This document shows positions 1-41,287 of a stretch of 41,967 nucleotides of DNA, piece after piece. Source of the stretch: Bacteroidaceae bacterium. Its GTDB lineage: Bacteria > Bacteroidota > Bacteroidia > Bacteroidales > Bacteroidaceae. Location of the stretch: NCBI GenBank assembly GCA_017960985.1, contig JAGCYD010000023.1, positions 1-41,967 on the forward strand, read 5' to 3'. Under the pieces are notes generated by a model, which was not told the origin of the DNA, did no database searches, and was given only the letters and a program-made list of their open reading frames with translations. Numbering within the stretch: position 1 is the stretch's first letter; each line of letters starts with the position of its first letter. A program made the position numbers and the translations under genes.

Positions 1-43
1 AAAATCCGTCTTTGTAAATTTGTTGTGAGAGCCTCCCTCGTCA

Positions 44-51
44 TAGTTTTG
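44..51 (+). promoter_or_regulatory. Bacteroidota -7 box upstream of left DUF3244 gene
   Basis: TAGTTTTG fits the TAnnTTTG consensus. TTTG at 19-22 lies 21 nt upstream and serves as a -33 box. Transcription would start near position 58, giving an AT-rich leader of about 28 nt. The same promoter is present in the right copy. Confidence 0.7.
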
Positions 52-86
52 CATCATCTAATTTCTATTATTTAATACAAAAAGCT

Positions 87-455
87 ATGACAAAAAAGAC
101 ATTTATTTCATTTGCAATGCTCTTGATTATGGGCATCGCAACGGCGTTCGCGCAAAATGGAGGTAACACACTACCTTTTATTATTAAACCAACAAATCCT
201 GGAGGAATTCAAATTCCACCTCCCAAGTCCCCCATTATTGTTCCCGAAGTATATCTGGACGGGAATACGCTGTCGTTCGATAGTGCCATCGAGGGCTGTA
301 CGGTACAGTTGTTGGACGAGGACGAGACTGTTGTCTATTCCTCTGTCATCAGTGTCGGTCAGACCACGCTTGTCCTGCCCAGTACACTCTCGGGTGAATT
401 TGAACTACAGATAGTCAGTGGCGACATCACTTTCTACTGCTATATAGAATTGTAA
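87..455 (+). CDS. DUF3244 family secreted protein (left copy)
   Basis: This 122-residue protein starts with a clear signal peptide (MTKKTFISFAMLL..., cleavage expected after AFA-Q at about residue 22). Residues 52-122 form the DUF3244 domain, recognisable from the segment VYLDGNTLSFDSAIEGC and the ending that contains LQIVSGDITFYC. Family structures have an immunoglobulin-like beta fold and are exported; the function is unknown. Residues 28-51 are a proline/glycine-rich linker that differs almost completely from the second copy at 40761-41129, while both flanks are nearly identical. The stop codon overlaps the next start (TAATG), so translation is probably coupled to the downstream lipoprotein and the gene heads the left operon. 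The start is supported by the promoter at 44-51 and the signal peptide. Confidence 0.9.
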   Translation: MTKKTFISFAMLLIMGIATAFAQNGGNTLPFIIKPTNPGGIQIPPPKSPIIVPEVYLDGNTLSFDSAIEGCTVQLLDEDETVVYSSVISVGQTTLVLPSTLSGEFELQIVSGDITFYCYIEL

Positions 456-2134
456 TGAAATTATTACGGATTATATCATCCGGAGTAATCATTTGTATGA
501 TAGGTATCTTTATCTCATGTAACAATGAGAATAAAGATACCACATACTATATACCAAAGCATGTGGAATCTTTGGAGATTCCATTAAACTTATGGAATAT
601 AAAGACAAAAAGTCCTTCTTTTGACAGTCTCTATATTCCATTATATAATCAACTGGACTTAAGAGAAATAGGAATAGATTCTTCTACAAATGTTCATTTA
701 TCCTGTACCATAGAGGCAAAACATACGGTACAACTTTATCTGGGAGTAAAGTGTGAGATGCCCCAATCTTTCCTCTTAAATGAAGACTCCTTAAGTAGAA
801 TTGATATTCAAGGACTCAACATATACCCCATACTGCTTAAAAAGGGGAAGAGTACACTACAAGCAGAAGTGAACACTACGGGAGAAGACTGGTCATTTGA
901 AACAACTCTGTATGACAGCCTTTCTATTGCCCAACTTTATGCGGAAGGACAAAGTTGCAACATTATCTATCCTTTGATTCCGACAGAGACCAAGGACATA
1001 ATGCTGACTAATGCACATCAGAATGTGCTATCATCTCCTGTGGTACTTACATTCAATGATGTACAAGGAAAAATGGTATCGGAAATAATCTTAAAAAAGG
1101 ACTCTTTTATCTATCATGTCCCTGAACTGGAGGAAGATATCTCTTATATGTGTAGTATGAAAATCGGCAAGACCCTTGTACGACAACCTGTATTATGCGG
1201 ACAAGACGACAATTCCTTGGTAAAATTTCAGAGACTTCGTCAGATGCTCCCTAAAGGACATCCCCGACTGCCTGAAATAGATGGGGCTCTTTATCGCCTT
1301 CAGTTCCTTCTTAACCATCCCACACGATATGAGGGTGATTGGTGGTGGCAGTTTAAGATTACCCCGCTAACCTATCAGTTAGAACATCTCTTCTCACATT
1401 TAGAAGAAACCTATGGTACAAGTGATACAGAATTTAATGTAAACTTCATATCCTATCGGTCTGTCATAGATGATAGCATACAACACTATTTATTAGTTAC
1501 TCCCAATAGCATCCATCAAGATGAGCCGTTACCATTGGTTGTTATTGTTCGCCCATTTTGTGAAAACTATCATCATTTCTTTGCCTCCCCTCAATTGGTA
1601 CGACAATGGGCTTTGAATATAGTTCAAGGACTGGCTAACCATCATCGATTCATAGTCATGATGCCAGAAGGGAGAATGCCAAAAAATGAAGACCTGACAC
1701 CAATGGCAGAAAGGGAAATCAAACTGGCTATTGAAGATGTCAAGTCACATTACAATATAGATGAGAGCAAGATGTATTTGCAGGCCAATTGCACGGGCGG
1801 TTACCGGGCGTTGAAGTTTGCTGAAGCCAATCCGAAACTATTTGCTGCCATTGCCCTGTATGCACCTGTTTATAAAGTGAACTATGCTTTGTCGTGGTCG
1901 AAACAATATACGGCAAAAAGTCAGCTTGCCAAACTGAAAGACATTCCACTAATGATTCACTATGACCCATTGGATGAACATAGTACGCCTGAACAGTTTG
2001 AGGAATTGGTGGCTGACTGCGAACATAATGGCATACCCTTGACTCTATCCGTAAAGCGGAATTCAGGAAAGTTTTACAATGTAGTCATTGCTGGGTGTGA
2101 AGCTTTTGAGTTTTTTCATGGAAAACAAAAATAA
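455..2134 (+). CDS. Predicted lipoprotein with divergent alpha/beta-hydrolase-like domain
   Basis: This 559-residue protein has a lipoprotein signal ending in IFISC (Cys22), so it should be anchored in the membrane, probably facing outward. The N-terminal half matches no family I recognise. Residues about 340-559 resemble the esterase/PHB-depolymerase type of alpha/beta hydrolase: a strand with PLVVIVRPFC, then the nucleophile elbow QANCTGGYRALKFAEANP. There the usual Gly-x-Ser-x-Gly reads Asn445-Cys446-Thr-Gly-Gly, so the nucleophile position is Cys446. Asp507 in HYDPLDEHSTP and His555 near the C-terminus could complete a triad. It overlaps the DUF3244 stop by one base and is AT-richer than the core genes. 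It could be an active Cys hydrolase, a pseudoenzyme or a binding protein; the fold is moderately sure and activity is not shown. Confidence 0.75.
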   Translation: MKLLRIISSGVIICMIGIFISCNNENKDTTYYIPKHVESLEIPLNLWNIKTKSPSFDSLYIPLYNQLDLREIGIDSSTNVHLSCTIEAKHTVQLYLGVKCEMPQSFLLNEDSLSRIDIQGLNIYPILLKKGKSTLQAEVNTTGEDWSFETTLYDSLSIAQLYAEGQSCNIIYPLIPTETKDIMLTNAHQNVLSSPVVLTFNDVQGKMVSEIILKKDSFIYHVPELEEDISYMCSMKIGKTLVRQPVLCGQDDNSLVKFQRLRQMLPKGHPRLPEIDGALYRLQFLLNHPTRYEGDWWWQFKITPLTYQLEHLFSHLEETYGTSDTEFNVNFISYRSVIDDSIQHYLLVTPNSIHQDEPLPLVVIVRPFCENYHHFFASPQLVRQWALNIVQGLANHHRFIVMMPEGRMPKNEDLTPMAEREIKLAIEDVKSHYNIDESKMYLQANCTGGYRALKFAEANPKLFAAIALYAPVYKVNYALSWSKQYTAKSQLAKLKDIPLMIHYDPLDEHSTPEQFEELVADCEHNGIPLTLSVKRNSGKFYNVVIAGCEAFEFFHGKQK

Positions 2135-2167
2135 CAGGATTAATAACTAACTTTAAAAACAACAAAA

Positions 2168-2689
2168 ATGAAAAGAATGCGTTTTATTAGTATAATGACT
2201 TTTGTGACCCTCTTTATGATGGGTTGTAGTAATGACATCGTAATAGATGACATGGAGACAGAGAATGTCACCACAAATGCACGAAGAAAGGTGCAAGGTA
2301 CAGGTGAAGGGAACGAACCAGATACATGTGCCTATTGGACATGGGCAAGTCTTGATACCACAATTATAGAAGATCCGATAGAAGTGACTTCTTTCAGTTT
2401 CCATATTACATGTAATGGAGGCCTTCTTAATGCATTGAATCCGAGTGCAAGTGTGATAGTAAATAATATAATGATAAATAATCTTGAGAATAATTCTACT
2501 GCTATAATAACTAGGACCGAAATTGGGAATAATGGTCAAATACATTGTTATTATCATGCTCATGTTCTCGATTATTTTCGCAGTATGTCATTAAACGCTG
2601 AATACTATGATGATTATGATGATTTTGTTACAGCACAAATGCATCAAGAAGAAAATAGAATACCAGAGTGGCCTGATGGCATGAACTAA
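2168..2689 (+). CDS. Small lipoprotein of unknown function
   Basis: This 173-residue protein has a lipoprotein signal peptide with lipobox FMMGC (Cys20), followed by an acidic stretch (SNDIVIDDMETENV). I recognise no domain in the mature part. It contains CAYWTWASLDTTIIEDP and an Asp/Tyr-rich segment near the C-terminus (EYYDDYDDF). It lies 33 nt after the hydrolase-like lipoprotein and 13 nt before the macroglobulin-like gene, so it probably belongs to the same operon and acts at the envelope with those proteins. The function is unknown. The composition is AT-rich, like the other accessory genes. Confidence 0.75.
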   Translation: MKRMRFISIMTFVTLFMMGCSNDIVIDDMETENVTTNARRKVQGTGEGNEPDTCAYWTWASLDTTIIEDPIEVTSFSFHITCNGGLLNALNPSASVIVNNIMINNLENNSTAIITRTEIGNNGQIHCYYHAHVLDYFRSMSLNAEYYDDYDDFVTAQMHQEENRIPEWPDGMN

Positions 2690-2702
2690 TAACAATAGAC
2701 CA

Positions 2703-5513
2703 ATGCCTTTCCGCCGAATCATATTTCTGCTGTTCTGTATCTCAAGTCTAATAGGGTGGGGACAGAATCCGCTGAACCATCCTTCAACCCTTCATGACTG
2801 GGCGGAGCGGCTTGATGTGCAGTCGCGCCTGTTGCCTCAGGAGATAGTGTTCGTCCACATGGACAACTCAAGCTACTTTCAAGGTGACACCCTCTACTAT
2901 AAGGCCTATGTGTTGCGGAGCGATGGTCGCCCGTCCGATTTGAGCCGTGTTCTCTACATGGAATTGCTGGACAACGACGGGTACCTCATCGAGCGACAGA
3001 TATTGAAGTTGGAGAACGGACAGGCCTGGGGCTCTTTCTGTCTTGCAGACACCCTCTACTGCGGATATTATGAACTAAGGGCCTATACGCGTTGGCAACT
3101 GAACTGGGGCAGTTATGAGCATGACCACAGCAGGTATACGAAAACATGGTTCTTCAACGAAAAACTGGAGCAGGAATATTTCCGTGACTACGATAAACTC
3201 TACAGCCGTGTGTTTCCCCTATACATGAAACCCTCCTCTCCTGGTGACTATGCGCAAAACATGGCACTGCGTCCCCTGCGCCGCTATTATCGCACCCGTG
3301 AAGAGCGCCCGACTACCAATGTGTCCTTCTATCCCGAGGGTGGCGACTGGGTAGCCGGCTTCCCCCAGCGCATAGCCTTTGAAGCCTGTTCCGAAGACGG
3401 AGAACGCCTCAACGGCCGTCTTGTTGTGACAGAGGGAGAAGATACTGTGACCATAGTACCTACGGTACATCGCGGAAGGGGGGTGGTGACACTGGATGGT
3501 GCAAGAAGGAACAGGTATAAGGCTTGGTTTGAGTGGGGTGATGGAAACAGGGAGAAGGTAAACTTGCCCAAAGAAAAAGACGACGGTGTAATCCTATGTG
3601 TAGAACAGAATGAGGACAGCCTATGTCTGAATGTCCGTTCCATGGGGCTTCCGTCTGCAGACTCACTCGGCATGACAGTCATGTCCAACGGAATCCTACG
3701 ATACAGGACAGTTGTTACGGAATCTCATATATCCATACCGCTCAGTGTATTGCCCGACGGCATTGCCCAGATAACCGTGTACGACCGAGCCGGCAGGGTG
3801 TGGGCCGACAGGATAACATTCGTGCGTCATCATACCTTGCCGACAGAGACTGTCCGCTTTAAGGGTATTAAAGAGATGTATGAGCCTTACGAGGAAATAA
3901 GTATGAGCATAGAGGCAGGCCGTTCCGGGAGCATATCGCTTGCCATACACGACAAGGCTCTTTCTGCCCTGACGAACGACGACGGCACGCTGCTGACAGA
4001 ACTACTCCTTTCAAGTCAGATAAAGGGATTCGTAGAACAGCCAGGTTATTATTTCGAGAAAGACGATGTGGAGCACCGCAACCGTCTCGACCTTCTGCTG
4101 ATGGTACAGGGCTGGCGACGATACAGTTGGGAGAAAATGACACAGCCCTTTACGGTGATGGAACCCATGGAGAAATACCGAATCCTCTCGGGGGAAGTGT
4201 ACCGGATGGATTTCTACCCTAAGGAACGCTATGACCCTTCGGGAATAGATTTATTAGGCTGGGGTAAAACAACTGCGACACAGTACATCAACATGGAATC
4301 TCATCGCGGTTCGGGCCCTATCACGAAAAGTGGCGAAGTCCACTATTTTCTTTATAACCCCTTTCCCCCTAAGGAGGACAGAGAGTATAGTACGGAAGAA
4401 GGAAGGAACAAGGAAATAAACTATACCATTAACGACCAACAGGAGTGGAAAGGGAAGTCGGAACTCAAGCGCGAGGTTCTGGTACATACTGAGTTTATCC
4501 AACCGAAAGGCGGTATCGTGTATGGTGAGATGATGACGGAAGGAGGTAGGTTCACTATTCCCCTGCCAGAATTCGAGGGCTATAGCCTGATGCATGTGGC
4601 AGCGTCAGACAGTAGCCTGTGGAAGAAGCGCTTTAAGAAGAAGCGCAAGGGACTGGCACACCATGACAAGTATCCCTGGATATCTGTGGATCATGAGAAC
4701 AAACTGGATAATCTGCCCGAATTCTATGTTCGCCTGCACTTCCCCTATCCTCGTTTCGTTAAACCCTATGATTTCTACCAGACCAAGGAGCGGGACGATG
4801 TGGGGAAGGAATATTCTGGGACAGGAGACAATGCTGTGGAAATGAAGGAGGTCACCGTACGAACGCGTCGCGGTGGATTGAGAAGTTTTGACCGTACAAA
4901 ACCGGCCTTCAAACTGGATGCCTACGAAGCGTTTAACAATGTGGTGGATGCTGGGATGCACCCACCGACTTACTATTGGCCGGTAAATCTCGGTCTGGCG
5001 ATAGCTGCCGATTATATTGGCGAGATGGGAGTGAAAAGCCGTTCCTATACTACAGAACTAAGGCGAGACTATGCCCATGATACACATTTTATGGATTCAA
5101 AGAAACTCTATCACTATCGCCAGTTGTGCTATCTTGATAGTTTCTATGTTTTCACGGATTATTCTCCTCGAAAGGAAGGTGATCGCCGGTATAGGCAGTC
5201 GGATCAACCTACGGTAACGGTTGATTTTCATCTGATACCAGATGAAACAAGGCGTGTGACCTATCGTGATAGATTCCTTTTGCTCCCAGGCTACAATGTC
5301 TGCACAGAATTCTACCAACCGAACTACGACGGTCATCCTCTACCCGATATTCCACAGGACTACCGGCGTACGCTATACTGGAATCCCAACCTGCAATTGG
5401 ATGAAGACGGCTGCGCCACAGTTACTTTCTGGAACAACTGCCGGAAAAACACTCTTTCCATAAGTGCAGAGGGTATCACAGCAGACGGATATATCCTAAC
5501 GGGACGAGAATGA
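2703..5513 (+). CDS. Macroglobulin (MG2)/TonB-plug-like surface protein
   Basis: This 936-residue protein has a signal peptide (residues 1-20, ending before GQNP). The segment EIVFVHMDNSSYFQGDTLYYKAYVL (about residues 47-71) and the following strands look like the MG2 domain of alpha-2-macroglobulin-type proteins of Bacteroidota. A motif VEMKEVTVRTRRG near residue 717 resembles the start of a TonB-dependent receptor plug, but no outer-membrane barrel follows. The C-terminus (LYWNPNLQLDEDGCATVTF...) is another macroglobulin-like beta domain. Such proteins are usually periplasmic or outer-membrane associated, and their roles are mostly undefined. Its stop overlaps the next start by 4 nt (ATGA), which indicates tight coupling to the O-antigen-ligase-like gene. 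It is more GC-rich than its lipoprotein neighbours. Confidence 0.8.
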   Translation: MPFRRIIFLLFCISSLIGWGQNPLNHPSTLHDWAERLDVQSRLLPQEIVFVHMDNSSYFQGDTLYYKAYVLRSDGRPSDLSRVLYMELLDNDGYLIERQILKLENGQAWGSFCLADTLYCGYYELRAYTRWQLNWGSYEHDHSRYTKTWFFNEKLEQEYFRDYDKLYSRVFPLYMKPSSPGDYAQNMALRPLRRYYRTREERPTTNVSFYPEGGDWVAGFPQRIAFEACSEDGERLNGRLVVTEGEDTVTIVPTVHRGRGVVTLDGARRNRYKAWFEWGDGNREKVNLPKEKDDGVILCVEQNEDSLCLNVRSMGLPSADSLGMTVMSNGILRYRTVVTESHISIPLSVLPDGIAQITVYDRAGRVWADRITFVRHHTLPTETVRFKGIKEMYEPYEEISMSIEAGRSGSISLAIHDKALSALTNDDGTLLTELLLSSQIKGFVEQPGYYFEKDDVEHRNRLDLLLMVQGWRRYSWEKMTQPFTVMEPMEKYRILSGEVYRMDFYPKERYDPSGIDLLGWGKTTATQYINMESHRGSGPITKSGEVHYFLYNPFPPKEDREYSTEEGRNKEINYTINDQQEWKGKSELKREVLVHTEFIQPKGGIVYGEMMTEGGRFTIPLPEFEGYSLMHVAASDSSLWKKRFKKKRKGLAHHDKYPWISVDHENKLDNLPEFYVRLHFPYPRFVKPYDFYQTKERDDVGKEYSGTGDNAVEMKEVTVRTRRGGLRSFDRTKPAFKLDAYEAFNNVVDAGMHPPTYYWPVNLGLAIAADYIGEMGVKSRSYTTELRRDYAHDTHFMDSKKLYHYRQLCYLDSFYVFTDYSPRKEGDRRYRQSDQPTVTVDFHLIPDETRRVTYRDRFLLLPGYNVCTEFYQPNYDGHPLPDIPQDYRRTLYWNPNLQLDEDGCATVTFWNNCRKNTLSISAEGITADGYILTGRE

Positions 5514-6958
5514 AGCGAGCAATAAATACATTTATTTGGCTATTGCTCCTTTTTGTATGTACCTTTCCTCCAACAGATTTATACCCGGAAATTTATATAC
5601 AGCCCAAATGGGGTGCTACGGTATGGGTCGTATTGCTTTGTTGTATCTTTGGCAAACGACCGAACGAGAAATATCTGCCTTGGGCTACTTGTCTTATGGC
5701 TGTGTATCTTTGTATTTATTCTCCCTTTGAAAATAATTCTGTACGCGCACTGCACCTGTGCCTGTTGTTGCCATTTGTGCATCAGGCACATCTATCTAAA
5801 AGGAGGGTACTACGAAGTGCTGTATGGGCAGTGGAAGGTATAGTGATAATTACATTAATCCTGATACAATGTCGGACAGCTTATTTGTGTTTAATGCTTT
5901 TCTTGCTGCTCTATTGCCTGCCTTATCGTCGCTTGTATCAAAGAGTATTTGTTATAATATTCTTTGTTGTAGTCTTACTATTTTTATCCATCTTTGGCAT
6001 GAAGACAGAATCTTCCCGAGGGCGATGGTTTATTCTGGGTAATACGATAGAGTTGGTCAAGGAGCATCCTTTGACTGGGTATGGGAAACATGGATTCCGA
6101 AAAATCTACATGAAGAAGCAAGCCGAATATTTTAAAAGCCATCCCGATTCTACATATTCCATGCTTGCCGATGAAGTCCGTCATCCATTAAATGAGTTTC
6201 TCTATGTAGCTGTAAATTGGGGTATTATTGCGAGCATACTATTATTTATAGTAGTGGTAACGCCTCTGTTTTGTTATTCAAAGGTCAGTAATTCCCTATG
6301 GCGATACGCCTTGATGGCCGTTTTTGTGTTCTCCATGTTTTGCTATCCACTTTGTTATCCTTTGGCATGGTGTGTTATTGTTGGAAACTGGGTGAGGTTG
6401 TTTAGCAATATCCCGCTATCCTCTGTTTCTCGTCTTGTATTTTGCATCCTTTTTCTTGTACTTTTCGCTTATAACGACTATTATTTACGGCGTTGGGGGT
6501 GTATCTCCCATCTATCCAAGAGCGGACATCCTAAAGCCATGATGAAATATTATAAAGAGTTATATCCAAAACTTTATCATTCTCCAGACTTCCTCTATGA
6601 CTATGCGATAGAAAGTTTTTATGCCATGAAGTTTATGCAAGCGTATAATTTGGCAGAGGAATGCGGAAAGGAGATAAGTTCATACGATCTCAGCCTACTG
6701 AGAGGGGATATATGCTTTCAAAGACACAGATACGAAGAGGCTTTGATGCACTATCAAGAAGCAGAGTGGATGTGTCCAGTTCGTTTCGCGCCACTTTCAG
6801 GAATGTGGGAAGTATATATTCGGCAAGGTAATAGCCTTTCAGCCGATTCTATAAGAAATATCATACTTAATAAACCTGTAAAAGTATTGTCTCCTGAAAT
6901 CTTAAGAATAAAGCGAATGGTAAAGGTTAACGGGAATGAACTCGAACGAAGCATATAG
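5510..6958 (+). CDS. O-antigen ligase family membrane protein with C-terminal TPR-like helices
   Basis: This 482-residue protein has about ten hydrophobic segments in residues 1-335. A large loop reads SSRGRWFILGNTIELVKEH, then TGYGKHGFRKIY, then RHPLNEFLYVAVNWGI, which is the Wzy_C pattern of O-antigen ligases, polymerases and protein O-oligosaccharyltransferases. Residues about 350-470 are soluble and helical, with tetratricopeptide-like units (SFYAMKFMQAYNLAEECGKE; HRYEEALMHYQEAEWMCP). The family transfers or polymerises lipid-linked glycans on the periplasmic face of the inner membrane. No glycosyltransferases surround it, so a role acting on the adjacent lipoproteins or macroglobulin-like protein is possible but inferred. 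It is the last gene of the left operon. Confidence 0.85.
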   Translation: MKRAINTFIWLLLLFVCTFPPTDLYPEIYIQPKWGATVWVVLLCCIFGKRPNEKYLPWATCLMAVYLCIYSPFENNSVRALHLCLLLPFVHQAHLSKRRVLRSAVWAVEGIVIITLILIQCRTAYLCLMLFLLLYCLPYRRLYQRVFVIIFFVVVLLFLSIFGMKTESSRGRWFILGNTIELVKEHPLTGYGKHGFRKIYMKKQAEYFKSHPDSTYSMLADEVRHPLNEFLYVAVNWGIIASILLFIVVVTPLFCYSKVSNSLWRYALMAVFVFSMFCYPLCYPLAWCVIVGNWVRLFSNIPLSSVSRLVFCILFLVLFAYNDYYLRRWGCISHLSKSGHPKAMMKYYKELYPKLYHSPDFLYDYAIESFYAMKFMQAYNLAEECGKEISSYDLSLLRGDICFQRHRYEEALMHYQEAEWMCPVRFAPLSGMWEVYIRQGNSLSADSIRNIILNKPVKVLSPEILRIKRMVKVNGNELERSI

Positions 6959-6968
6959 TTTAATAGTT

Positions 6969-7133
6969 TAAAGTGAGCCTTTTTCTGCCCTATAATTACC
7001 CTCTCAAAAATCAATATCGTCTCGTTGAAAAATCAACACCGTTGATTTCGAAAATCATTAGTATTAAATTGCAAAATCATTACCGTTGATTTTGCAAATC
7101 ATCAGTGTTGATTTTTGAAAGCATTATTGGTGG
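6969..7133 (+). repeat. Inverted repeat B, left copy (165 bp, without the 110-bp insert)
   Basis: The reverse complement reappears at 35568-35843. The inner 143 nt (6991-7133 against 35568-35710) align without gaps and with very few mismatches. It contains three variants of a palindromic 17-mer, such as AATCAACACCGTTGATT and AATCATTACCGTTGATT, which can form overlapping hairpins. It begins 11 nt after the upstream stop codon, so it may also act as a transcription end point. Confidence 0.9.
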
Positions 7134-7155
7134 GGGAAATATGAGAGGCAAAAAT

Positions 7156-7260
7156 TTTGTATTTCGCTCGATTTGCACTATCTCTGAGATAAATCTCTAA
7201 AATACTCCCATTCGGAAACACAAAATATATTTTGCGTTTCTCTCATTTATTCGTATCTTT
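7156..7260 (+). repeat. Promoter-like direct repeat, copy 1
   Basis: This segment shares nearly all bases with 7318-7420, offset by 160-162 nt. It contains TTTGTATTTCGCTCGATTTG, a small palindrome GAGATAAATCTC, a hairpin around ACAAAATATATTTTG, and ends in GTATCTTT, one base short of the TAnnTTTG -7 consensus (next base T). Confidence 0.85.
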
Positions 7261-7317: not shown

Positions 7318-7420
7318 TTTGTATTTCGCTCGATTTGCACTATCTCTGAGATAAGTCTCTAAAATACTCCCATTCGGAAAAGCAAAAAATTTTGCTTTTC
7401 TCTCATTTATTCGTATCTTT
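7318..7420 (+). repeat. Promoter-like direct repeat, copy 2 (adjacent to miaB)
   Basis: This is the second copy of the 7156-7260 element. Differences are concentrated in the short hairpin (GCAAAAAATTTTGC here). Unlike copy 1, its 3' end forms a perfect -7 box together with the next base (TATCTTTG). Confidence 0.85.
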
Positions 7421-7421: not shown

Positions 7422-7448
7422 TCGGCGATATTGGGGTAGTATGCCCCA

Positions 7449-32235: not shown

Positions 32236-34075
32236 CCGCCAATACGACAACCGTAGATATGTATTGGGGGGTGCTGCGGTACTCATCATCATCGTCTATC
32301 TCATTCGTTTGTTCACGCTCCAGTTGATGAGCGACGACTTCAAGCGCAATGCCGATAGTAATGCCTTTCTGAAGCGTATTCAGTTTCCCGCCCGCGGTGT
32401 GATAAGCGACCGCAACGGCAAATTGCTTGTCTATAACCAGCCCGCCTACGACATCATGATTGTCATGTCGGAGATTGCAGGTATCGACACACTCGACCTC
32501 TGTGAAAGTCTGGGCATCACCCGCGACTGGTTCGACCGTCGAATGGTGGAAATCAAGGACAGATACCGCAACCCTGGCTACAGTTCCTACACGCAACAGA
32601 TTTTCATGAGCCAGTTGTCCGCCGAGGAGTTCTCCAGTTTTCAGGAAAAACTCTTCCGCTTCCCCGGCTTCTACATCATCAAGCACAGCATTCGCCAATA
32701 TGCAACTTCTAACGGAGCCCATATCCTCGGAGATGTCGGCGAAGTCGGACCTGCCGACATCGAGGCCGACGATTACTACCGCAGTGGCGACTACATCGGT
32801 AAACTCGGTGTGGAACGCAGTTACGAGAAACAATTGCGCGGAGAAAAGGGAGTGGAGATTCTTTTGCGGGATGCCCGTGGTCGTATCAAGGGAAAATATC
32901 AGGACGGCAAGTTCGACCGTGCCCCAATTCCCGGAAAAAACCTTACGCTGAGCATCGACGCAGAACTGCAGGCCTTGGGCGAAAGGCTGATGAAGAACAA
33001 ATTAGGCAGCATCGTCGCCATCGAACCCTCCACGGGCGAAGTGTTGTGTATGGTGTCCTCGCCCACCTATGACCCTCGTATTATGGTGGGTCGTCAGCGC
33101 GGAAAGAACAATCAGATATTGTCGGCCGACCCCTACAAGCCCTTGCTCAACCGTGCCATCATGGGACAATATCCTCCTGGTTCTACCTTTAAGACCAGTC
33201 AGGCGCTGACCTTCCTTCAGGAAGGCATCATCACCCCCGAGACATCCTACTCGTGCAGTCACGGATTCCATTTTGGTCGTCTGACCGTAGGCTGTCACGG
33301 ACATCCCTCACCGCTGCCGTTGATACCCGCCATCGGAACCTCGTGCAACGGCTATTTCTGTTGGGGACTCTACCACATGTTTGGCAACCGCAAGAAATAC
33401 CCCAATGTGCAAACCGCCATGAACACCTGGCGAAACTATATGGTCAGCATGGGCTTCGGCTATCCGCTGGGCATCGACCTGCCCGGAGAGAAACGAGGCA
33501 TGATACCCAACGCCGAATACTACGACAAATATCTCCACGGCTCATGGAACGGCTTGACGGTCATTTCCATTTCCATCGGCCAGGGCGAAGTGAACCTTAC
33601 CCCCCTACAAATCGCCAATCTGGGGGCTACGATAGCCAACCGCGGTTACTATATTACGCCCCATGTGGTGAAGGGAGTGCAAGGCGAGAAACTGGACACT
33701 ACCTATACCACCAAGCACTACACGATGGTATCTCCCGAGAACTACGAAATCGTGGTCAGCGGTATGCGCCGTGCTGTGGAGGGCGGAACCTGCCACAGTG
33801 CCAACAACCCCTGGTACGAGGTTTGCGGAAAGACGGGAACCGCCCAGAACCGTGGACACGACCACTCCGTATTCATGGGATTTGCGCCCAAGGATAAGCC
33901 CCAGATAGCCGTAGCCGTATATGTCGAAAACGGCGGTTGGGGTGCCACCTACGGAGTACCCATCGGGGCGCTGATTATGGAGAAATACATCAACGGCACA
34001 TTGTCTCCCGAGAGCGAGGCAAAAGCCGAAGCGTTTGAAAACAGAACAATATCCTATGGTAGCGGGCAGAGGTAA
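32225..34075 (+). CDS. mrdA: Penicillin-binding protein 2 (elongasome transpeptidase)
   Basis: This 616-residue class B penicillin-binding protein crosslinks peptidoglycan during elongation. It has one N-terminal membrane segment (about residues 13-35), a pedestal domain with the block FPARGVISDRNGKLLVYNQP and a transpeptidase domain. Active-site motifs are Ser320-Thr-Phe-Lys323, Ser373-Cys-Asn375 and Lys536-Thr-Gly538. It overlaps mreD by 11 nt and rodA by 20 nt, so the complex partners are translationally linked. Beta-lactams are expected to acylate Ser320. Confidence 0.97.
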   Translation: MENNRQYDNRRYVLGGAAVLIIIVYLIRLFTLQLMSDDFKRNADSNAFLKRIQFPARGVISDRNGKLLVYNQPAYDIMIVMSEIAGIDTLDLCESLGITRDWFDRRMVEIKDRYRNPGYSSYTQQIFMSQLSAEEFSSFQEKLFRFPGFYIIKHSIRQYATSNGAHILGDVGEVGPADIEADDYYRSGDYIGKLGVERSYEKQLRGEKGVEILLRDARGRIKGKYQDGKFDRAPIPGKNLTLSIDAELQALGERLMKNKLGSIVAIEPSTGEVLCMVSSPTYDPRIMVGRQRGKNNQILSADPYKPLLNRAIMGQYPPGSTFKTSQALTFLQEGIITPETSYSCSHGFHFGRLTVGCHGHPSPLPLIPAIGTSCNGYFCWGLYHMFGNRKKYPNVQTAMNTWRNYMVSMGFGYPLGIDLPGEKRGMIPNAEYYDKYLHGSWNGLTVISISIGQGEVNLTPLQIANLGATIANRGYYITPHVVKGVQGEKLDTTYTTKHYTMVSPENYEIVVSGMRRAVEGGTCHSANNPWYEVCGKTGTAQNRGHDHSVFMGFAPKDKPQIAVAVYVENGGWGATYGVPIGALIMEKYINGTLSPESEAKAEAFENRTISYGSGQR

Positions 34076-35537
34076 AAGACAAAGCATATTCAGGTCGGTG
34101 GACTGGCTGACCATCATCATCTACATCGCCCTGCTTGGGCTGGGGTGGATGAGTGTATGCGGAGCCTCTTATGATTTCGAACAGGGTACTAACCTCATCG
34201 ACTTCTCTTCCCGTACTGGCATGCAAATCGTATGGATTGCCACATCGCTCCTGCTGGCCTTGTTCATCCTCGGCATAGACGAACGCTACTTCGACACCTT
34301 CTCCTATGTCCTTTATATCGCCTTCATGGCGTTGTTGTTTGCCACACCATTCCTGGCACACAACATCAAGGGCTCCATGTCGTGGATTAAGATAGGTTCG
34401 TTCAGCATCCAGCCCGCAGAGTTTGCCAAGTTTGCCACAGCACTGTGCGTGGCGAAATACATGGGGAGCCACGACTTCAACATCAACAAATGGTGGCACT
34501 TCCTGCTGGCCTGCATCCTCATCCTTTTGCCGATGGTGCTGATTATACTACAACGCGAAACGGGTAGTGCATTGGTCTATACGGCATTCTTTCTCATGTT
34601 CTACCGCGAAGGCATGCCGGGTTCCATTCTCTTTGCCGGCATTTCAGCAGTCATCTATTTTGTGGTCGGTGTACGGTTCGAGCAAGACCCTCTTTGGGGA
34701 CTGAAGGCCGTCAGTCTGGGCAAGTTCTGTGTACTCCTGATTATCCTGCTCTTCACCGTGGGCATGATGCGTACCTATACCACTCTGCTCACCCCCATAC
34801 TGAGAATCCTTGGCTACGGACTGGGACTTACCCTGTCCGTACTGTTGTTTGCCAAGTATGTCATACCCTTCGACATCACATGGGTACAACTTGCCATTTG
34901 TATTGCCACCATCGGCTATCTTTTCTACCTAGCCGTAAAGCAGCGCATGGTTCGTTATGCTTACATCGCCCTGTTCGCTTTGGGATCACTCACGCTCTAC
35001 TATTCCGTAGATTATGTCATGGATCATGTCATGCAGCCTCATCAGCAGACCCGCATCCGTGTACTCTTGGGCATGGAGGACGACCCACGCGGAGCGGGCT
35101 ACAATGTCATACAGGCCAAGATTGCCATTGGCTCTGGCGGATTGAGAGGCAAGGGCTTCCTGAACGGGACACAGACCAAACTGAAATATGTGCCCGAACA
35201 GGATACCGATTTCATCTTCTGCACCGTGGGCGAGGAAGAAGGTTTTCTGGGTTGCACCATCGTACTGCTGCTGTTCCTGGCACTCATACTCCGCCTCATC
35301 CATTTGGCCGTACGACAACCCTATGCTTCTGGGCGCATATACGGTTATTGTGTATTGAGCATCTTCCTGTTCCATGTCTTCATCAATGTCGGCATGGTAC
35401 TCGGACTGACGCCCGTCATCGGCATTCCGTTGCCCTTCTTCAGTTATGGCGGTTCGTCCCTCTGGGGCTTCACCATGCTGCTGTTTATCTTCCTCCGCAT
35501 GGATGCAGGGCGTAACCGCTTCGTCCACAACCGCTGA
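34056..35537 (+). CDS. rodA: Peptidoglycan glycosyltransferase RodA (SEDS family)
   Basis: This 493-residue SEDS protein polymerises lipid II into glycan strands with PBP2. It has about ten membrane segments. Motifs are GSMSWIKIGSFSIQPAEFAK, IGSGGLRGKGFLNGTQTKL, YVPEQDTDFIFCTVGEEEGF and IGIPLPFFSYGGSSLWGFT. A TTG at 34035 could add seven residues, but the ATG at 34056, overlapping mrdA by 20 nt, is more likely. There is an extra-long central region (about residues 200-320) of added hydrophobic segments, as common in Bacteroidota. It is the last gene of the operon and is followed by a 25-nt dispersed word and repeat B. Confidence 0.97.
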   Translation: MVAGRGKRQSIFRSVDWLTIIIYIALLGLGWMSVCGASYDFEQGTNLIDFSSRTGMQIVWIATSLLLALFILGIDERYFDTFSYVLYIAFMALLFATPFLAHNIKGSMSWIKIGSFSIQPAEFAKFATALCVAKYMGSHDFNINKWWHFLLACILILLPMVLIILQRETGSALVYTAFFLMFYREGMPGSILFAGISAVIYFVVGVRFEQDPLWGLKAVSLGKFCVLLIILLFTVGMMRTYTTLLTPILRILGYGLGLTLSVLLFAKYVIPFDITWVQLAICIATIGYLFYLAVKQRMVRYAYIALFALGSLTLYYSVDYVMDHVMQPHQQTRIRVLLGMEDDPRGAGYNVIQAKIAIGSGGLRGKGFLNGTQTKLKYVPEQDTDFIFCTVGEEEGFLGCTIVLLLFLALILRLIHLAVRQPYASGRIYGYCVLSIFLFHVFINVGMVLGLTPVIGIPLPFFSYGGSSLWGFTMLLFIFLRMDAGRNRFVHNR

Positions 35538-35543
35538 TTTTCC

Positions 35544-35568
35544 CGTTTGACCTATCGGTCTTCCTCAC
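35544..35568 (-). repeat. 25-nt dispersed word, copy 2
   Basis: This is the exact reverse complement of 9688-9712. It starts 6 nt after the rodA stop and abuts repeat B. Confidence 0.85.
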
Positions 35569-35706
35569 CACCAATAATGCTTCAAAAAATCAACACTGAT
35601 GATTTGCAAAATCAACGGTAATGATTTTGCAATTTAATACTAATGATTTTCGAAATCAACGGTGTTGATTTTTCAACGAGACAATATTGATTTTTGAGAG
35701 GGTAAT

Positions 35707-35816
35707 TATACCCCATGTCGAGCATATGGTACTCATCGAAAAATTGCTTACTGCAAATTCAAAAAGAATACGGTATTCACCACATGGTGATTACCGTATT
35801 CTCAATATGGGGTATA
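35707..35816. mobile_element. 110-bp MITE-like insertion in repeat B
   Basis: It is bounded by perfect 10-bp inverted ends (TATACCCCAT at 35707-35716 and ATGGGGTATA at 35807-35816). It contains a strong 36-nt hairpin and no ORF, and the left copy of repeat B lacks it, acting as an empty site. A second TATGGGGTA just outside the right end leaves the exact border uncertain by about 5-15 bp. It is too short to encode its own transposase. Confidence 0.65.
35766..35801. terminator. Strong hairpin inside the MITE-like element
   Basis: GAATACGGTATTCACC pairs with GGTGATTACCGTATTC around a short loop, with one internal T-T mismatch. It lies between converging rodA and the - strand accessory gene and may end transcripts from both. 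Confidence 0.55.
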
Positions 35817-35835
35817 GTTATGGGGTAGAAAAGGC

Positions 35836-37092
35836 TCACTTTACCATGACCTTCTTCCTACCCTTAATATAAATCCCCTTCTTCAATCTTAGGCTGTTAA
35901 GGTTAGCGTTCCCGTTAGCGTTGACCTTTCGCCCGGAAAGGTCATATACACCTCCTTCTCCTTGGGAAACCGCTGGGGCAAGGGCAATCCCGTTTGTCGG
36001 ATTGCACACCAGCGCCTGATGTGCCCCTCCTTCAAGACCAACCTGATAGGTACCGGCCGCAAAGCCTGGGATTTTGAATTCGAACTCACAATAACAATAC
36101 ATACCAATTTCAGAGGAATAACTTATTATCGTATAGACACCACCCAAAACCATATCTATATTGTTATCAAACACTGTACATTCTGCATACATAGGAGAGG
36201 ATATGGAGCCAACATATATCCCCGAGACGCAAAGAGTGTCTTGCAGGAAGGTATATGTCAGTTCTGTTTCCATCTCATCCCATAGAAGGTTCCACTTTGA
36301 ACGAAAGGCTTTAGTCTTGTAACTATTCTTGTTTATGTCAAACACTCCCCATATATCAGTTCCCGTGGCGCAAGTCACTTTAGAACAGGTCGGAGTTGCC
36401 GTAAGTGTCTTCAATTTCTCCGTCAGGAACAAGGGCGTTATTCCCCAGTTCACCGAGCCAAGTCCCTCTATCCACACATCTTCCTGCCCTCCGTTTTCGG
36501 CTACAAGGCGTAGCATCTTGGGCAAGGCTGAACCTTCACGGTATTCAACACTTTCATTATACTCTTCAAAAAAGCCAGTCTCTGTCACGGTGAATCGTTC
36601 GCCGGCGGCATTCGTAAAAACATCACCCACGGACAGCGAATAGTCCAGTATCAAGGACTCCTCACCTTCTTCGGAGCGGTAATAGACCTTGTCACCTTCC
36701 TGCCTATACAACAAGGTATCTACACAATCAGGGCGAGTATCATAACAAACCCCAATAGGCTTAGGCCAAGTTTCATCCTCTACGATTATATCTTGCCTTG
36801 CTATGAAAGTCACTTTTTGGTAGTGGTTGCCTCCCACCAATGTGTCACCATACTCGATAAAACACCCTCTTTTCACATCGCTACCATCTTCAAGGTGGAG
36901 ATAAAGATTCCAGCCCTTAAAACAGCTGTACATATGTATCTCCTTCATAGCCTTCCACGCTTCATCATCAAAGTCATAAAAATAAGCATTATAATTGTCG
37001 TCGGTGAAGATCGTTGGATAATCAACACTCGTATCTGCATAGATGCTTCCCATCCATAGACAAGAAAAAAGTAACAATAATGTTTTTTTCAT
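35836..37092 (-). CDS. Secreted protein of unknown function with T9SS-like C-terminal tail
   Basis: This 418-residue protein has a signal peptide (MKKTLLLLFSCLWMGSIYA, cleavage after residue 19). The mature region is acidic and rich in short beta-type segments; no catalytic family is recognised. The C-terminus GGVYDLSGRKV...LKKGIYIKGRKKVMVK matches the type-A T9SS sorting tail pattern, so it should be exported through the outer membrane. The frame is open back to 37152, but ATG 37092 gives the signal peptide and lies 4 nt after the C25 peptidase stop. It is the last gene of the right operon, and its stop codon lies within inverted repeat B. Confidence 0.8.
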   Translation of the reverse strand: MKKTLLLLFSCLWMGSIYADTSVDYPTIFTDDNYNAYFYDFDDEAWKAMKEIHMYSCFKGWNLYLHLEDGSDVKRGCFIEYGDTLVGGNHYQKVTFIARQDIIVEDETWPKPIGVCYDTRPDCVDTLLYRQEGDKVYYRSEEGEESLILDYSLSVGDVFTNAAGERFTVTETGFFEEYNESVEYREGSALPKMLRLVAENGGQEDVWIEGLGSVNWGITPLFLTEKLKTLTATPTCSKVTCATGTDIWGVFDINKNSYKTKAFRSKWNLLWDEMETELTYTFLQDTLCVSGIYVGSISSPMYAECTVFDNNIDMVLGGVYTIISYSSEIGMYCYCEFEFKIPGFAAGTYQVGLEGGAHQALVCNPTNGIALAPAVSQGEGGVYDLSGRKVNANGNANLNSLRLKKGIYIKGRKKVMVK

Positions 37093-37096
37093 GGCT

Positions 37097-39397
37097 TTAC
37101 TGATTTGTAAATTCAAAATTAGATTCAATATAGACACCTGACTGTAAATCAAGTTCCTTTCCTATTATGGTTATGGTTGAATTCAGAATATTGACATCGC
37201 CCGTATCTTTGGTATTGGTAACATGGTTTCCTATATGAATCGTATTTCCTTTATAGAGGCGAACCTCCCCGTCTATATTCTCATTTTGTATGTAAACATC
37301 CTTCGAGTAATCCCATATATATGGAATATAATTATGCCTGTCTAAGCAAATTACCAAACTATCCGATGGGTTGGCATATCCTGCATAATTCCCTTTATAT
37401 GACACTGCATTTTCTGTCGTTTTATCATAGAATGTTATCTTACAATCTCCATCTTCTACATGCACAAAGATAGAATCATTCCGCAAAAATACCAAAGGTT
37501 CAGCAAAGTTTTGTGGCGTATCTGTCCAGATTTGCATTGTCGGGTCACCAAAACAATGAAAAAGTTTCCATGTTTCTCTCTTATAATTACTCATTCTTTT
37601 TCCAAAAGTCTCTCCCATCCGAATTAATCCTTGGTCTAATATTCTTCCCAATTCATATATTGGAGTGGAAATATTAGAATATTTTCTATAAAATATAAAA
37701 TGATAATGGGGTTGTAAATTAGGCCATATAGCATCAAACATACCCAATGCCATCGCATCATTATAACCTGTAAAACTTGTTTCTGTAGCGGCAAAGACAC
37801 CTACACATCCCCCTCCCTCTTTTTTCAAGAAAGCTTCTGCAAAACAATCTCCAGTCTCATTATATTTCCCTGTTCGACAGTTAATACTAAAGACAACGGG
37901 GTACTTATTACCATTATTCAACTGTGATATATGTGCACTATTGAAAAAGGGTCCCAACCATCCTTCTTTGTACCCATGCCCATTATGTAAAACATACAAA
38001 GTTCCATTATCTATTATGGAGCGTATCTGTGTACTATTTCCATCCCATAAAAAAGAGTCTGGCTGCAAATCAACTGGCAAACTCATACCAAGACTATAGA
38101 ATTTACTCCAATAAAGCGATGGTGAAGTATTTGTTGTTTTAGCATATTGACGACTTATTTGTAGTCCTTTGGATTGTAGATGTCGGCGTATATTCTCAGA
38201 TGTAAGTATAAAACCCCAATCTTCATACCCATCTTTAGGGGCTTCATCTTGAAACTTACCACAATGCAAGGCTGTATGATAAAACAAACTATCTATAATA
38301 GGATTCCTCTCATACTGAATAACTTTATCTAATATAACACTTACTTGGTGAGAATTATCTGCAGGAATCCTGCCTCTTGATATTTGAGGAATTTCAGCAT
38401 CTAATACTGGCAATCCATATTCTACATCGGTAACAGCATTTATGGTTACTGTTTGTTGATTATCGTTGATATATGTGTATGAAAAAGGTCTGGCTGGTAT
38501 ATCATCTACGCCTCCTATTATTAATAAATATTGTAGTCCATATTGTTGGAAGTAGTTTTCAACGCTATCTCGCACTTCACTTGCCGTCCAATTTCCTCTA
38601 TTTTTCGTTGTCACATAAACCCTATTCCCTTTCATCCGTTTCCATTCAACAAAATTCTGGATAGAATCCAAATATTCATTGGTTGTAACAATCAATAAAC
38701 TCTGATTATTTAATGATGAATGCCATATACTATCCTGTGAATGGACTCTATTTAAGCCACCCTGGAGCCCATAATTTAGGGTAATGTTTGACAGGAAGTC
38801 CTCTTCTATGAGATTTGTATATGTGGGAGAATCTCCTCCTGGGGAGGCTGCCTGCTCAGGTATAAAGTTCACTCTATATTTTATTGTTGTATATACACGC
38901 GCTATATGATGTTCGTTGTCGTATTGTACAGGCACAATGGTAACTCCTTGTAACCCAGCCCCTCGATAATGCTGCATAGTATCCGCCTCAATAGTTGCAG
39001 AGGGAAAGAACCCGACATACGGTGATATGCTGTCTATAATAAAGGGAATGCTAATCTCAGGTAAGTTAGGAACTGCCGGTGACATCATAAAGGCAGTATC
39101 AGTATATTCTGCTTCAATGATATTTACAATCGTTGTATGGTTGGCAGGAACATAAAATAAGTCATTCCGGAATGGAACAGCTGGTTCTCCCGATTTGTCG
39201 TTAATACCGAATCCTATATATTGCCAGAAAAATGTATTTGGGACAAGACTATTAGGATGTATAATTGGGTTTGCGAATTGGTAGGTAACAATAACCCCGT
39301 TTGAAACAAATTCCACACTTCTCTCTGGAAGCGTTTCTGTTTGAGCCAATAATATTGTTGGCAGAATCAGCCAAAATATTGTCAATAGTTTTTTCAT
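37097..39397 (-). CDS. Peptidase C25 (gingipain-like) family protein
   Basis: This 766-residue protein has a signal peptide ending LLAQ-TET (about residue 19). An N-terminal propeptide-like region of about 200 residues precedes a C25 domain (about 235-590): LLIVTTNEYLDSIQNFVEWK, QYLLIIGGVDDIPARPF, the His motif LHNGHG (His474) and the Cys motif SINCRTGKY (Cys507), followed by GGGCVGVFAATETSFTGYND. The C-terminus (VNILNSTITIIGKELDLQSG) resembles the coat-hanger stack found in surface proteins rather than a standard sorting tail. C25 enzymes are secreted cysteine proteases or, as PorU, the T9SS signal peptidase; at 766 residues it is shorter than PorU. It is AT-rich compared with core genes and lies 18 nt after the upstream T9SS cargo gene. 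Confidence 0.88.
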   Translation of the reverse strand: MKKLLTIFWLILPTILLAQTETLPERSVEFVSNGVIVTYQFANPIIHPNSLVPNTFFWQYIGFGINDKSGEPAVPFRNDLFYVPANHTTIVNIIEAEYTDTAFMMSPAVPNLPEISIPFIIDSISPYVGFFPSATIEADTMQHYRGAGLQGVTIVPVQYDNEHHIARVYTTIKYRVNFIPEQAASPGGDSPTYTNLIEEDFLSNITLNYGLQGGLNRVHSQDSIWHSSLNNQSLLIVTTNEYLDSIQNFVEWKRMKGNRVYVTTKNRGNWTASEVRDSVENYFQQYGLQYLLIIGGVDDIPARPFSYTYINDNQQTVTINAVTDVEYGLPVLDAEIPQISRGRIPADNSHQVSVILDKVIQYERNPIIDSLFYHTALHCGKFQDEAPKDGYEDWGFILTSENIRRHLQSKGLQISRQYAKTTNTSPSLYWSKFYSLGMSLPVDLQPDSFLWDGNSTQIRSIIDNGTLYVLHNGHGYKEGWLGPFFNSAHISQLNNGNKYPVVFSINCRTGKYNETGDCFAEAFLKKEGGGCVGVFAATETSFTGYNDAMALGMFDAIWPNLQPHYHFIFYRKYSNISTPIYELGRILDQGLIRMGETFGKRMSNYKRETWKLFHCFGDPTMQIWTDTPQNFAEPLVFLRNDSIFVHVEDGDCKITFYDKTTENAVSYKGNYAGYANPSDSLVICLDRHNYIPYIWDYSKDVYIQNENIDGEVRLYKGNTIHIGNHVTNTKDTGDVNILNSTITIIGKELDLQSGVYIESNFEFTNQ

Positions 39398-39415
39398 GGG
39401 AACTCCCTCCTTTCC

Positions 39416-40669
39416 TTAGATGTTCTGTACAATCATCTTACGGGTGGCTCGTATTTTCCCATCCACGATAAGGCTGTAGATGTACATGCCCGGGGTAAGT
39501 CCTGCGGCATATACCGTGATGTTCGTCGCGCCGCGGTCGGACACTTCCACGGTCTGTACCTGCTTGCCGTTCATGTCGTAGATGTTGATGGTGGCGCGGC
39601 TGGCGGTCTCGGGAACGGTAAGGCTGATGACGGTGCTCTGACTGAACGGATTGGGGCGGTTCTGGCTCATCGTCACCATGTCAATATCTGAAAAGGCATC
39701 CTCTATGGCCGTGACCTCGCCCTTGACATTTGCATCCGACTGGCTTTCGCTGCTGAGTTGCTGTTCCAATGTGGCGACCTTGGCCGACAGTTCCCTGATG
39801 CTCTGTACGAGCAGGGGCACCATCTCTATGTAGTTGATGCTGTAGTTGCCCTCGCTGTCCTCATACACCAGTTCGGGATAGACCTGCTTCAACTGATCGG
39901 CTGCCAGTCCGTAGCTGACATCGGACAGGCGGGTCTGGATAGGGTCTTCCTCTTCCAACTCCTCGTCTTCCGAAAGAGATATTTTTGTTTCAATCTTGTT
40001 GGCAGCCAGACTGCCGTTCTGATTCACGCGCTCCATTTGGAGCAAATCCACCTGCTGGAGTTTATCCGTTACCGTTTCTCCTCTGTTTGTTGTAGTAGAT
40101 AAGTTTATCGTACTTCCTCCTCCCGAAGGGGATGACACGGAGGAGGGGCTTACCAAGGTCCCGTATATGGTACCTGTTGCCTTTACATCGCCCCAAAAAT
40201 AACCAGCATAATCTCCTGTGATTCTATTATGACTTGTTGTAGATGACCCTGCTATCCCAGCACCACCTGAACCATAGGTGTTTTTTCTTCCGCCAAAAAC
40301 CCCATACTGATATCCTGCCCCTTTGGCTATACCTTTTACTCCACATGAAACACCTGAAGAATGGCTCTGGCTTTTACTTTCTACTATGGACACCACTCCA
40401 TGTGGAGAACCATTCGTTACAAAGTCTATTTCTATTCCTTTTGTTACATTCGGATTTACGGTTGTGTCGTTACCCAGAAATAAAATGCCTGTATCCGTAG
40501 AATCAGCAGAAAGCATAATACCTCCAAACTTTTTATTTTTATATTTATTAGGAGTAGAACTCTTTATGCCGACTCCCATCCTCCCCAAAGAATCTACTCT
40601 TAACTGTGCATAGCCTCCAAAAGTGAACAAGGTAAATAAACTCAATACAAAAAATCTTTTTGTTTTCAT
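39416..40669 (-). CDS. Secreted protein with endosialidase-chaperone-like region and T9SS C-terminal tail
   Basis: This 417-residue protein has a signal peptide (about residues 1-21, ending GGYAQ). Residues 22-190 are a glycine/serine-rich beta region reminiscent of tail-fibre shafts (GVSCGVKGIAKGAGYQYGVF). Residues about 245-310 (DVSYGLAADQLKQVYPELVY ... IEMVPLLVQSIRELSAKVAT) resemble the intramolecular chaperone (S74) module with its coiled coil. Residues about 340-417 (NRPNPFSQSTVISLTVPE ... GMYIYSLIVDGKIRATRKM) are a typical T9SS type-A sorting domain. A fibrous trimeric surface protein is inferred. The N-terminal part is AT-rich and the C-terminal part GC-rich, as if the domains had different histories. 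Confidence 0.85.
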   Translation of the reverse strand: MKTKRFFVLSLFTLFTFGGYAQLRVDSLGRMGVGIKSSTPNKYKNKKFGGIMLSADSTDTGILFLGNDTTVNPNVTKGIEIDFVTNGSPHGVVSIVESKSQSHSSGVSCGVKGIAKGAGYQYGVFGGRKNTYGSGGAGIAGSSTTSHNRITGDYAGYFWGDVKATGTIYGTLVSPSSVSSPSGGGSTINLSTTTNRGETVTDKLQQVDLLQMERVNQNGSLAANKIETKISLSEDEELEEEDPIQTRLSDVSYGLAADQLKQVYPELVYEDSEGNYSINYIEMVPLLVQSIRELSAKVATLEQQLSSESQSDANVKGEVTAIEDAFSDIDMVTMSQNRPNPFSQSTVISLTVPETASRATINIYDMNGKQVQTVEVSDRGATNITVYAAGLTPGMYIYSLIVDGKIRATRKMIVQNI

Positions 40670-40722
40670 ATATTAGTTTTTAAGGTTTAGGTGTTATATG
40701 TAAAAGGTATAAATAAGAAGAA

Positions 40723-40746
40723 GAAGAAGGGGAGTCCCCCTTCTTC
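40723..40746 (-). terminator. Hairpin between right DUF3244 gene and the T9SS cargo gene
   Basis: GAAGAAGGGG (40723-40732) pairs perfectly with CCCCTTCTTC (40737-40746). On the - strand it is followed by a pyrimidine-rich tract. It lies 14 nt after the DUF3244 stop, so it may attenuate read-through into the downstream genes. Confidence 0.7.
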
Positions 40747-40760
40747 CATTTTCAGTTTTA

Positions 40761-41129
40761 CTATAGTTTTATATCACAATAGAAGGTGATGTCGCCACTG
40801 ACTATCTGCAGTTCATACTCTCCTGAGAGCGTGCTGGGCAGGACAAGCGTGGTCTGACCGACGCTGATGACGGAGGAATAGACGACAGTCTCGTCCTCAT
40901 CCAACAACTGCACCGTGCAGCCCTCGATGGCACTATCGAACGAAAGGGTGTTCCCGTCCAGATATACTTCGGGGATTTGTACTAAGGATTTAGGAAAACC
41001 CGTAGACCCACCACCCGTTGTCGTCGGTTTAATTGAAAGAGGAAGATGATTTCCTCCATTTTGCGCGAACGCCGTTGCGATACCCATAATCAAGAGCATT
41101 GCAAATGAAATAAATGTCTTTTTTGTCAT
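40761..41129 (-). CDS. DUF3244 family secreted protein (right copy)
   Basis: This 122-residue paralogue of the protein at 87-455 is identical in residues 1-27 (signal peptide and NGGN). It is divergent in residues 28-51, which read HLPLSIKPTTTGGGSTGFPK here, and almost identical from VYLDGNTLSF to the end apart from three substitutions (Phe to Tyr, Tyr to Asp, Glu to Lys). It should be exported; the DUF3244 function is unknown. It uses the same promoter sequence as its left twin (- strand TAGTTTTG at 41165-41172) and is followed by a hairpin, then by a T9SS cargo operon. A membrane-anchored regulator gene lies upstream in the same orientation. Confidence 0.9.
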   Translation of the reverse strand: MTKKTFISFAMLLIMGIATAFAQNGGNHLPLSIKPTTTGGGSTGFPKSLVQIPEVYLDGNTLSFDSAIEGCTVQLLDEDETVVYSSVISVGQTTLVLPSTLSGEYELQIVSGDITFYCDIKL

Positions 41130-41164
41130 AGCTTTTTGTATTAAATAATAGAAATTAGATGATG

Positions 41165-41197
41165 CAAAACTATGACGAGGGAGGCTCTCACAACAAA
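41165..41197 (-). promoter_or_regulatory. Promoter of right DUF3244 gene
   Basis: On the - strand, TTTG at 41194-41197 and TAGTTTTG at 41165-41172 mirror the left promoter exactly. Just upstream, GATTGTGC (41218-41225) and GCACAATC (41235-41242) form an 8-bp inverted repeat that could be an operator or the end of the regulator transcript. Confidence 0.65.
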
Positions 41198-41287
41198 TTT
41201 ACAAAGGCGGATTTTTGGATTGTGCCACGAAAATGCACAATCTTTAAGGTCTATAAATAAATGAATTAAAGCGAGTTAAAACAAATT

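Follow-up and report, generated by a model that had tools for sequence, protein, structure and literature searches.

A proposed pair of paralogous regulator–DUF3244 leader units in inverted orientation at two sites of a Bacteroidaceae genome, probably kept alike by recombination

Introduction

Small genes of the DUF3244 family, here called leader genes, stand at the head of two operons for secreted proteins in the contig JAGCYD010000023.1 of a Bacteroidaceae bacterium (GCA_017960985.1). The contig is analysed here over its full length of 41,967 nucleotides (the window, contig C71 in our numbering) and belongs to a draft metagenome-assembled genome (MAG) of 82 contigs that is 83.8% complete. 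In our reading, which we consider probable, the two leaders belong to paralogous units, each made of a regulator, a promoter and a DUF3244 leader, which occupy two chromosomal sites in opposite orientation, have been kept alike by recombination and head an operon of their own. A first-pass annotation, made from the sequence alone, had proposed that the same pair could act as a switch, exchanging two envelope operons through inversion of everything between them. In this article, we describe the repeat, the assembly fork at its right end and the family of units to which it belongs, and we weigh the evidence for exchange between copies against other explanations.

The inverted repeat and its extent

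The inverted repeat formed by 1-455 and 41215-40761 is confirmed, and its likeness lies far beyond chance. A repeat search within the window returned the arms 1-193/41023-41215 at 93% identity and 243-460/40756-40973 at 89%, and BLAST aligned 1-460 with the right copy at 85% identity, these two being the sole matches in the whole MAG. The two mismatches claimed for the first 163 nt of the arms were confirmed; they lie at 9 and 134, and between them stands the longest unbroken match, of 124 bp (10-133). From about 164 to 242 the two leader genes diverge and the DNA alignment requires gaps, and the homology of the arms stops at about the leader stop codon (455/40761). The claim that the repeats contain the promoter was likewise borne out. 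The copies of the promoter and 5' untranslated region at 1-86 (plus strand, truncated by the contig end) and 41130-41215 (minus strand) differ by one mismatch, and both carry TAAATTTG (15-22 on the left, 41201-41194 on the right), which we take to be a "-7"-like promoter box.

Since position 1 is the contig end, the truncation of the left arm is due to the assembly and has no biological meaning. On the right, the arm very probably continues through the C-terminal half of a membrane regulator with TPR-like repeats (41288-41965, minus strand) to the opposite contig end. The arms would then have a common length of about 1 kb, provided that the unseen left copy matches as well as its visible ends. 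Upstream of the right promoter box lies the dyad GATTGTGC-N9-GCACAATC (41218-41242, strand not assigned), a putative operator whose left counterpart, if any, would fall outside the contig. Dyads of the 8+8 type were found in 18 of 84 upstream stretches of related units (4.9 in shuffled sequence). One operator common to all units was considered and dropped; the dyad sequences differ between units and are suggestive at most.

The assembly fork and the flanks of the two units

Two other contigs of the MAG, C50 and C19, both begin with the same 141 bp with which the window ends (41827-41967, strand not assigned), which makes this end an assembly fork. Beyond these 141 identical bases, C50 and C19 show three mismatches in their first 241 bp in all and then diverge abruptly. 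Further along the regulator, their identity averages about 56% in the middle, recovers to 93-98% close to the N-terminus and disappears where the regulator begins; the membrane part is 100% identical. In a search of this genome with a profile of 11 regulators, C50 and C19 each proved to start with a sensor half, a single output half was recovered at the right end of the window, and C15 gave one distant match. Because two sensor halves but only one output half are present, the repeat running through regulator, promoter and leader seems to have been collapsed in assembly; the genome would then have two regulators that share their membrane and output part and differ in their sensors.

Relatives indicate which flank belongs to the right unit. 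Among the 10 relatives whose rodA locus was fetched, eight have rodA followed at once by two convergent genes, presumably GldH-like and PSP1, as named by us from the sequences and not from a family search. In the genome studied here C50 carries these genes, immediately upstream of its own half of a regulator. The gene order in relatives therefore makes window-C50 the syntenic junction, with the right unit between rodA and the GldH-like gene, and by elimination the C19 regulator would belong to the left unit. A left outer flank reached via MutS, as hinted by a related genome (G066), was ruled out, the MutS homologue of this genome lying on C45 without an adjoining regulator. Apart from this, the comparison of C50 (L215 6326-7759) with a relative (L069) shows that genes preceding purH-mreB-rodA in relatives follow GldH/PSP1 here, so that a block has moved.

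The unit family across the genus

The window pair are members of a recurring regulator-leader-cargo family. Searched with a profile of 14 DUF3244 sequences, the genus (139 genomes) yielded 114 matches, spread over 67 genomes. The fetched loci provided 89 units from 56 genomes, the remaining matches being unfetched or without a usable reading frame. The upstream neighbour matches the regulator profile in 81 of the 89 units (59 co-directional, 22 divergent). Five of the other eight have no visible upstream gene because the contig ends there, which makes 81 of 84 where an upstream gene is visible. The cargo downstream is varied, comprising type IX secretion system (T9SS)/C25 proteins, a recurring 'MRIVQTFWTAG' family, lipoproteins and others.

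Chromosomal sites of this kind seem to gain and lose units. Next to a TrmH-like gene, the genome G017 has a regulator-DUF3244-Wzy unit between this gene and its neighbour, where C50 has none (8532/8544). Similarly, the CorA gene of G014 is followed by a C25 unit, the corresponding place in the window being empty. Relatives found by sequence include MAGs of ruminant-gut Bacteroidales (roe deer and red deer samples, a RUG assembly). Among the papers listed by our search of the literature on DUF3244, such regulators, inversions and shufflons, no description of a regulator-leader-variable-cargo unit was found; in the excerpts available, DUF3244 appears in gene tables of one paper (PMC10434189) and the term occurs in another (PMC6653060).

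Probable recombination between copies

Evidence for exchange comes from the clustering of units by genome. In genomes with several copies, the closest relative at the DNA level is another unit of that genome for 24 of 53 units, as compared with a mean of 0.94 and a maximum of 5 in 500 shuffles of the genome labels. On a tree of the leaders, 53 rows labelled by genome require 31 changes (200 shuffles: mean 44.8, minimum 42). Leaders appear to track genomes and hardly to track cargo. Cargo was compared in 15 pairs, chosen by eye for closeness from 30 same-genome pairs and partly from the same genomes; both sides were visible in 14, of which 12 have unrelated and two related cargo. In one genome (G008; L064 6529-6954 and 13869-14294), two 542-bp units that are 92.6% identical lie 7.3 kb apart in direct orientation with different cargo, and a regulator adjoins the first unit only. 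The left cargo of the window and the cargo of G066 are 63-66% identical, yet their leaders share only 33%, as against 86% between the left and the right leader of the window. These patterns fit a history in which units have converted or exchanged their leader parts. Past exchange between the repeat copies is consistent with both the patchy near-identity along arms and regulator and the same-genome clustering.

On this basis, we propose the following picture. The left unit lies before a MiaB-like gene and the right unit between rodA and the GldH-like gene. Gene conversion or crossover would keep about 1 kb alike, covering the transmembrane (TM) and output half of the regulator, the promoter and the 5' end of the leader, while sensor halves and cargo differ. 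The regulator may sense an envelope signal, bind near the promoter dyad and turn on leader and cargo. If the arms crossed over, about 40 kb would be inverted and each operon would come under the other sensor half; such an event would be of the RecA type and rare, not programmed.

Several observations weigh against this proposal. The leader tree labelled by cargo (36 rows) needs 14 changes, which lies inside the shuffled range (mean 16.8, minimum 13) and says little for or against. Divergence is only modestly uneven along the leader gene (mismatches 7/170 vs 24/213, p 0.013), and the contrast in synonymous changes gives p 0.11 (3/27 vs 20/70 codons). The signs of conversion could also arise from a recent duplication and subsequent selection on the sensor. 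In G066, the relative of the left cargo was not found beside a MiaB-like gene in one contig, and two of the 10 relatives have no GldH/PSP1 in the fetched rodA stretch. The C-terminal half of the left regulator is unseen, so that both how far the left arm extends and the assignment of C19 depend on elimination in a MAG of limited completeness. Finally, no further contig overlaps position 1, although a simple 141-mer fork would predict one.

Alternative explanations

The alternative that survives best, to which we would still give only about one chance in five in our own weighing, is a plain recent duplication of regulator and leader before the second operon, in which the sensor diverged later by selection and no recombination took place between copies. 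It accords with homology that begins near the regulator start codon and finishes at the leader stop codon. The alternation of identity along the regulator, high near the N-terminus, low in the middle and complete in the membrane part, speaks against it, as does the repetition of clustering by genome across the genus.

An active, reversible inversion, in which homologous recombination at the arms flips the 40-kb interval often and the population holds both forms, swapping sensor control of the C25 operon and of the hydrolase/MG2/Wzy operon, appears improbable. The arms themselves would be adequate, since near-identical inverted stretches with the 124-bp exact run, 85% identity over 460 bp and a likely length of about 1 kb are what inversion between paralogues by homologous recombination calls for, and copies seem to have recombined in the past. 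The window also joins two different flanks at its right end through 141 identical bp each. A collapsed two-copy repeat, however, produces the same fork, and synteny supports one joining, that with C50; taken by itself, the fork in this one draft contig fits one or both forms.

Assemblies of related species also tend to break at DUF3244 genes. Among the 95 of 114 DUF3244 matches with known contig extent, 20 have a contig end within 500 bp downstream, as compared with 1.8 expected and with five on the upstream side. Likewise, 17 of 114 DUF3244 genes lie within 500 bp of a contig start, as against 5 of 260 for RodA and FtsX together (p 4e-6), a control counted by hand from strong matches (RodA 3/133, FtsX 2/127) with weak partial matches excluded. 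Examples of such breaks are seen at the end of L128, at the start of L129 and in L123 and L124. As proof of switching, this pile-up was rejected, because near-identical copies or strain variety yield the same pattern. A wider idea is that DUF3244 units are recombination hubs, where reciprocal exchange (inversion if the copies are opposed, deletion or exchange if they are direct) re-pairs sensors with surface operons within populations and thereby causes the assembly breaks downstream of the leader. We regard this idea as improbable too.

A built inversion switch, as envisaged by the first-pass annotation, found no support. Orientation is not conserved, as the direct pair in G008 shows; relatives back a single joining at the right end; and a Pfam scan of 37 window proteins (E up to 0.01 or 0.001) recognised no recombinase, the rest of the genome not having been searched for recombinases. 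The nearby recombinase of a site-specific invertible switch of the Mpi, Tsr or Hin type was thus not recognised in the window. What the annotation said about the consequence of crossing-over stands in part: the interval would indeed be inverted, but the regulator is probably not unique. Since nearly all units of the genus with a visible upstream gene have a regulator there, inversion would re-pair sensor halves with operons, not bring one operon to a sole regulator, and as the promoter is inside the repeat it would switch neither operon off. Reading two orientations of the 1-41.2 kb block from synteny proved unusable: in the close relatives compared, the MiaB/FtsX and RodA sides lie on separate contigs or, in G139, in opposite orientation at a distance of 131 kb. 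Nor do the relatives compared preserve the 28-kb core as a block, so a two-state inversion is unreadable from synteny. Among the genomes searched, none was recognised as a second one of this species.

Least probable is an assembly artefact, in which a false join at the repeat put the C25 operon or its regulator end in the contig and the inverted arrangement is unreal: the fragmentation and incompleteness of the draft MAG, the position of both contig ends inside the repeat and the differing order and orientation of the core in relatives would allow it, but both DUF3244 copies are continuous with their own cargo inside the contig, the right side agrees with rodA-GldH synteny via C50, and the repeat arms are distant from the operon-core junctions, although these junctions carry a 143-bp dispersed repeat.

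The leader protein, the regulator and the cargo

Both leader genes encode proteins of 122 amino acids. The right one (40761-41129, minus strand) passes the gathering cutoff of 25 for DUF3244 (PF11589) with 25.7 bits; the left one (87-455, plus strand), which has a signal-peptide-like start, remains just under it with 23.2 bits. A Foldseek search with a predicted model of the right leader gave as top matches 4g5a (BT_1867; E 0.013) and 3sd2 (BT_3571; E 0.025), both solved Bacteroides structures of the DUF3244 family, and no match at E 0.001 or better. The T9SS sorting domain 8qb1, the C-terminal domain of mirolase, has a similar small beta fold (TM-score by target 0.62-0.63) with a Foldseek E of only 0.13-0.23. 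Unlike T9SS C-terminal sorting domains, the window leader is a stand-alone secreted protein. A weak DUF3244 match also covers the Por_Secre_tail region of the protein at 39419-40669. We take the leader to be a small secreted beta protein of the DUF3244 fold that also resembles T9SS sorting domains, both likenesses having weak E-values.

In alignment, the regulator appears to comprise a TPR-like region, a TM helix, a coiled coil and a helix-turn-helix (HTH)-like end, of which the window contains the last three at its right end. The predicted model is helical. TPR matches are below cutoff in both sensor halves of this genome (C50 and C19) and mostly below cutoff in relatives. The C-terminal end gives weak fold matches to HTH domains of the LuxR type, e.g., EvgA and RcsB, with E near 1. 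In the mechanism with the best support, this regulator would control the adjoining promoter of the leader.

The earlier naming of the genes was mostly upheld: Wzy_C, the C25 peptidase and Por_Secre_tail pass their Pfam cutoffs, DUF3244 does so in the right copy only, and the hydrolase and MG2 matches stay below cutoff. The left operon (all plus strand) begins with a hydrolase-like lipoprotein (455-2134; weak S9/S33 matches; G066 homologue 66% identical), followed by a small lipoprotein-like protein (2168-2689; no Pfam match; 45% in G066), a large secreted MG2-like protein (2703-5513; E 0.004; 63% in G066) and an O-antigen-ligase-like membrane protein (5510-6958; Wzy_C, E 1.3e-14). In the left-type operon of G066 (L059), the small lipoprotein gene is duplicated (784-1344 and 4224-4727). 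The right operon (all minus strand) starts with a T9SS-sorted secreted protein carrying Por_Secre_tail (39416-40669), continues with a C25 peptidase with C25 propeptide (37097-39397; E 1.2e-47) and finishes with a secreted protein with a weak T9SS sorting tail (35836-37152; TIGR04183, 16.1 bits, cutoff 23).

At the inner ends of the two units lies the 143-bp repeat mentioned above (6991-7133 and 35568-35710, strand not assigned), which is partly palindromic, with its two copies inverted and 98% identical. As an inner switch site it was ruled out, being a dispersed intergenic element with related stretches at more than 12 other places of the MAG. Ahead of the MiaB-like gene, a promoter-like stretch is doubled (7156-7231 and 7318-7393, 162 bp spacing).

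Significance and comparison with known systems

Should recombination in Bacteroidales of the ruminant gut indeed join sensors to new surface operons, regulation could be rewired there without invertases. Even without switching, a modular regulator-leader-cargo family helps to explain why metagenome assemblies fragment at such loci, and caution is advisable in inferring orientation at these loci from draft contigs.

Systems of the Mpi and Tsr types rely on a site-specific recombinase and on short recognition repeats. The window resembles the invertible promoters and global invertases of Bacteroides fragilis (Mpi and Tsr types) in its Bacteroidales host, its surface operons and a promoter within inverted repeats; it differs from them in that its arms are gene units 40 kb apart and that no recombinase was recognised in the window. 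In the excerpts available of two papers, Mpi is described as acting on scattered promoters (PMC5903667, PMC12632263). Large inversions, on the other hand, are usually brought about by homologous recombination between rRNA operons or transposable elements, according to the available part of one of them (PMC5903667). With such inversions the window shares long inverted homologous arms and unequal flanks, and it differs from them in that no inversion is observed here and in that its arms are regulator-leader units.

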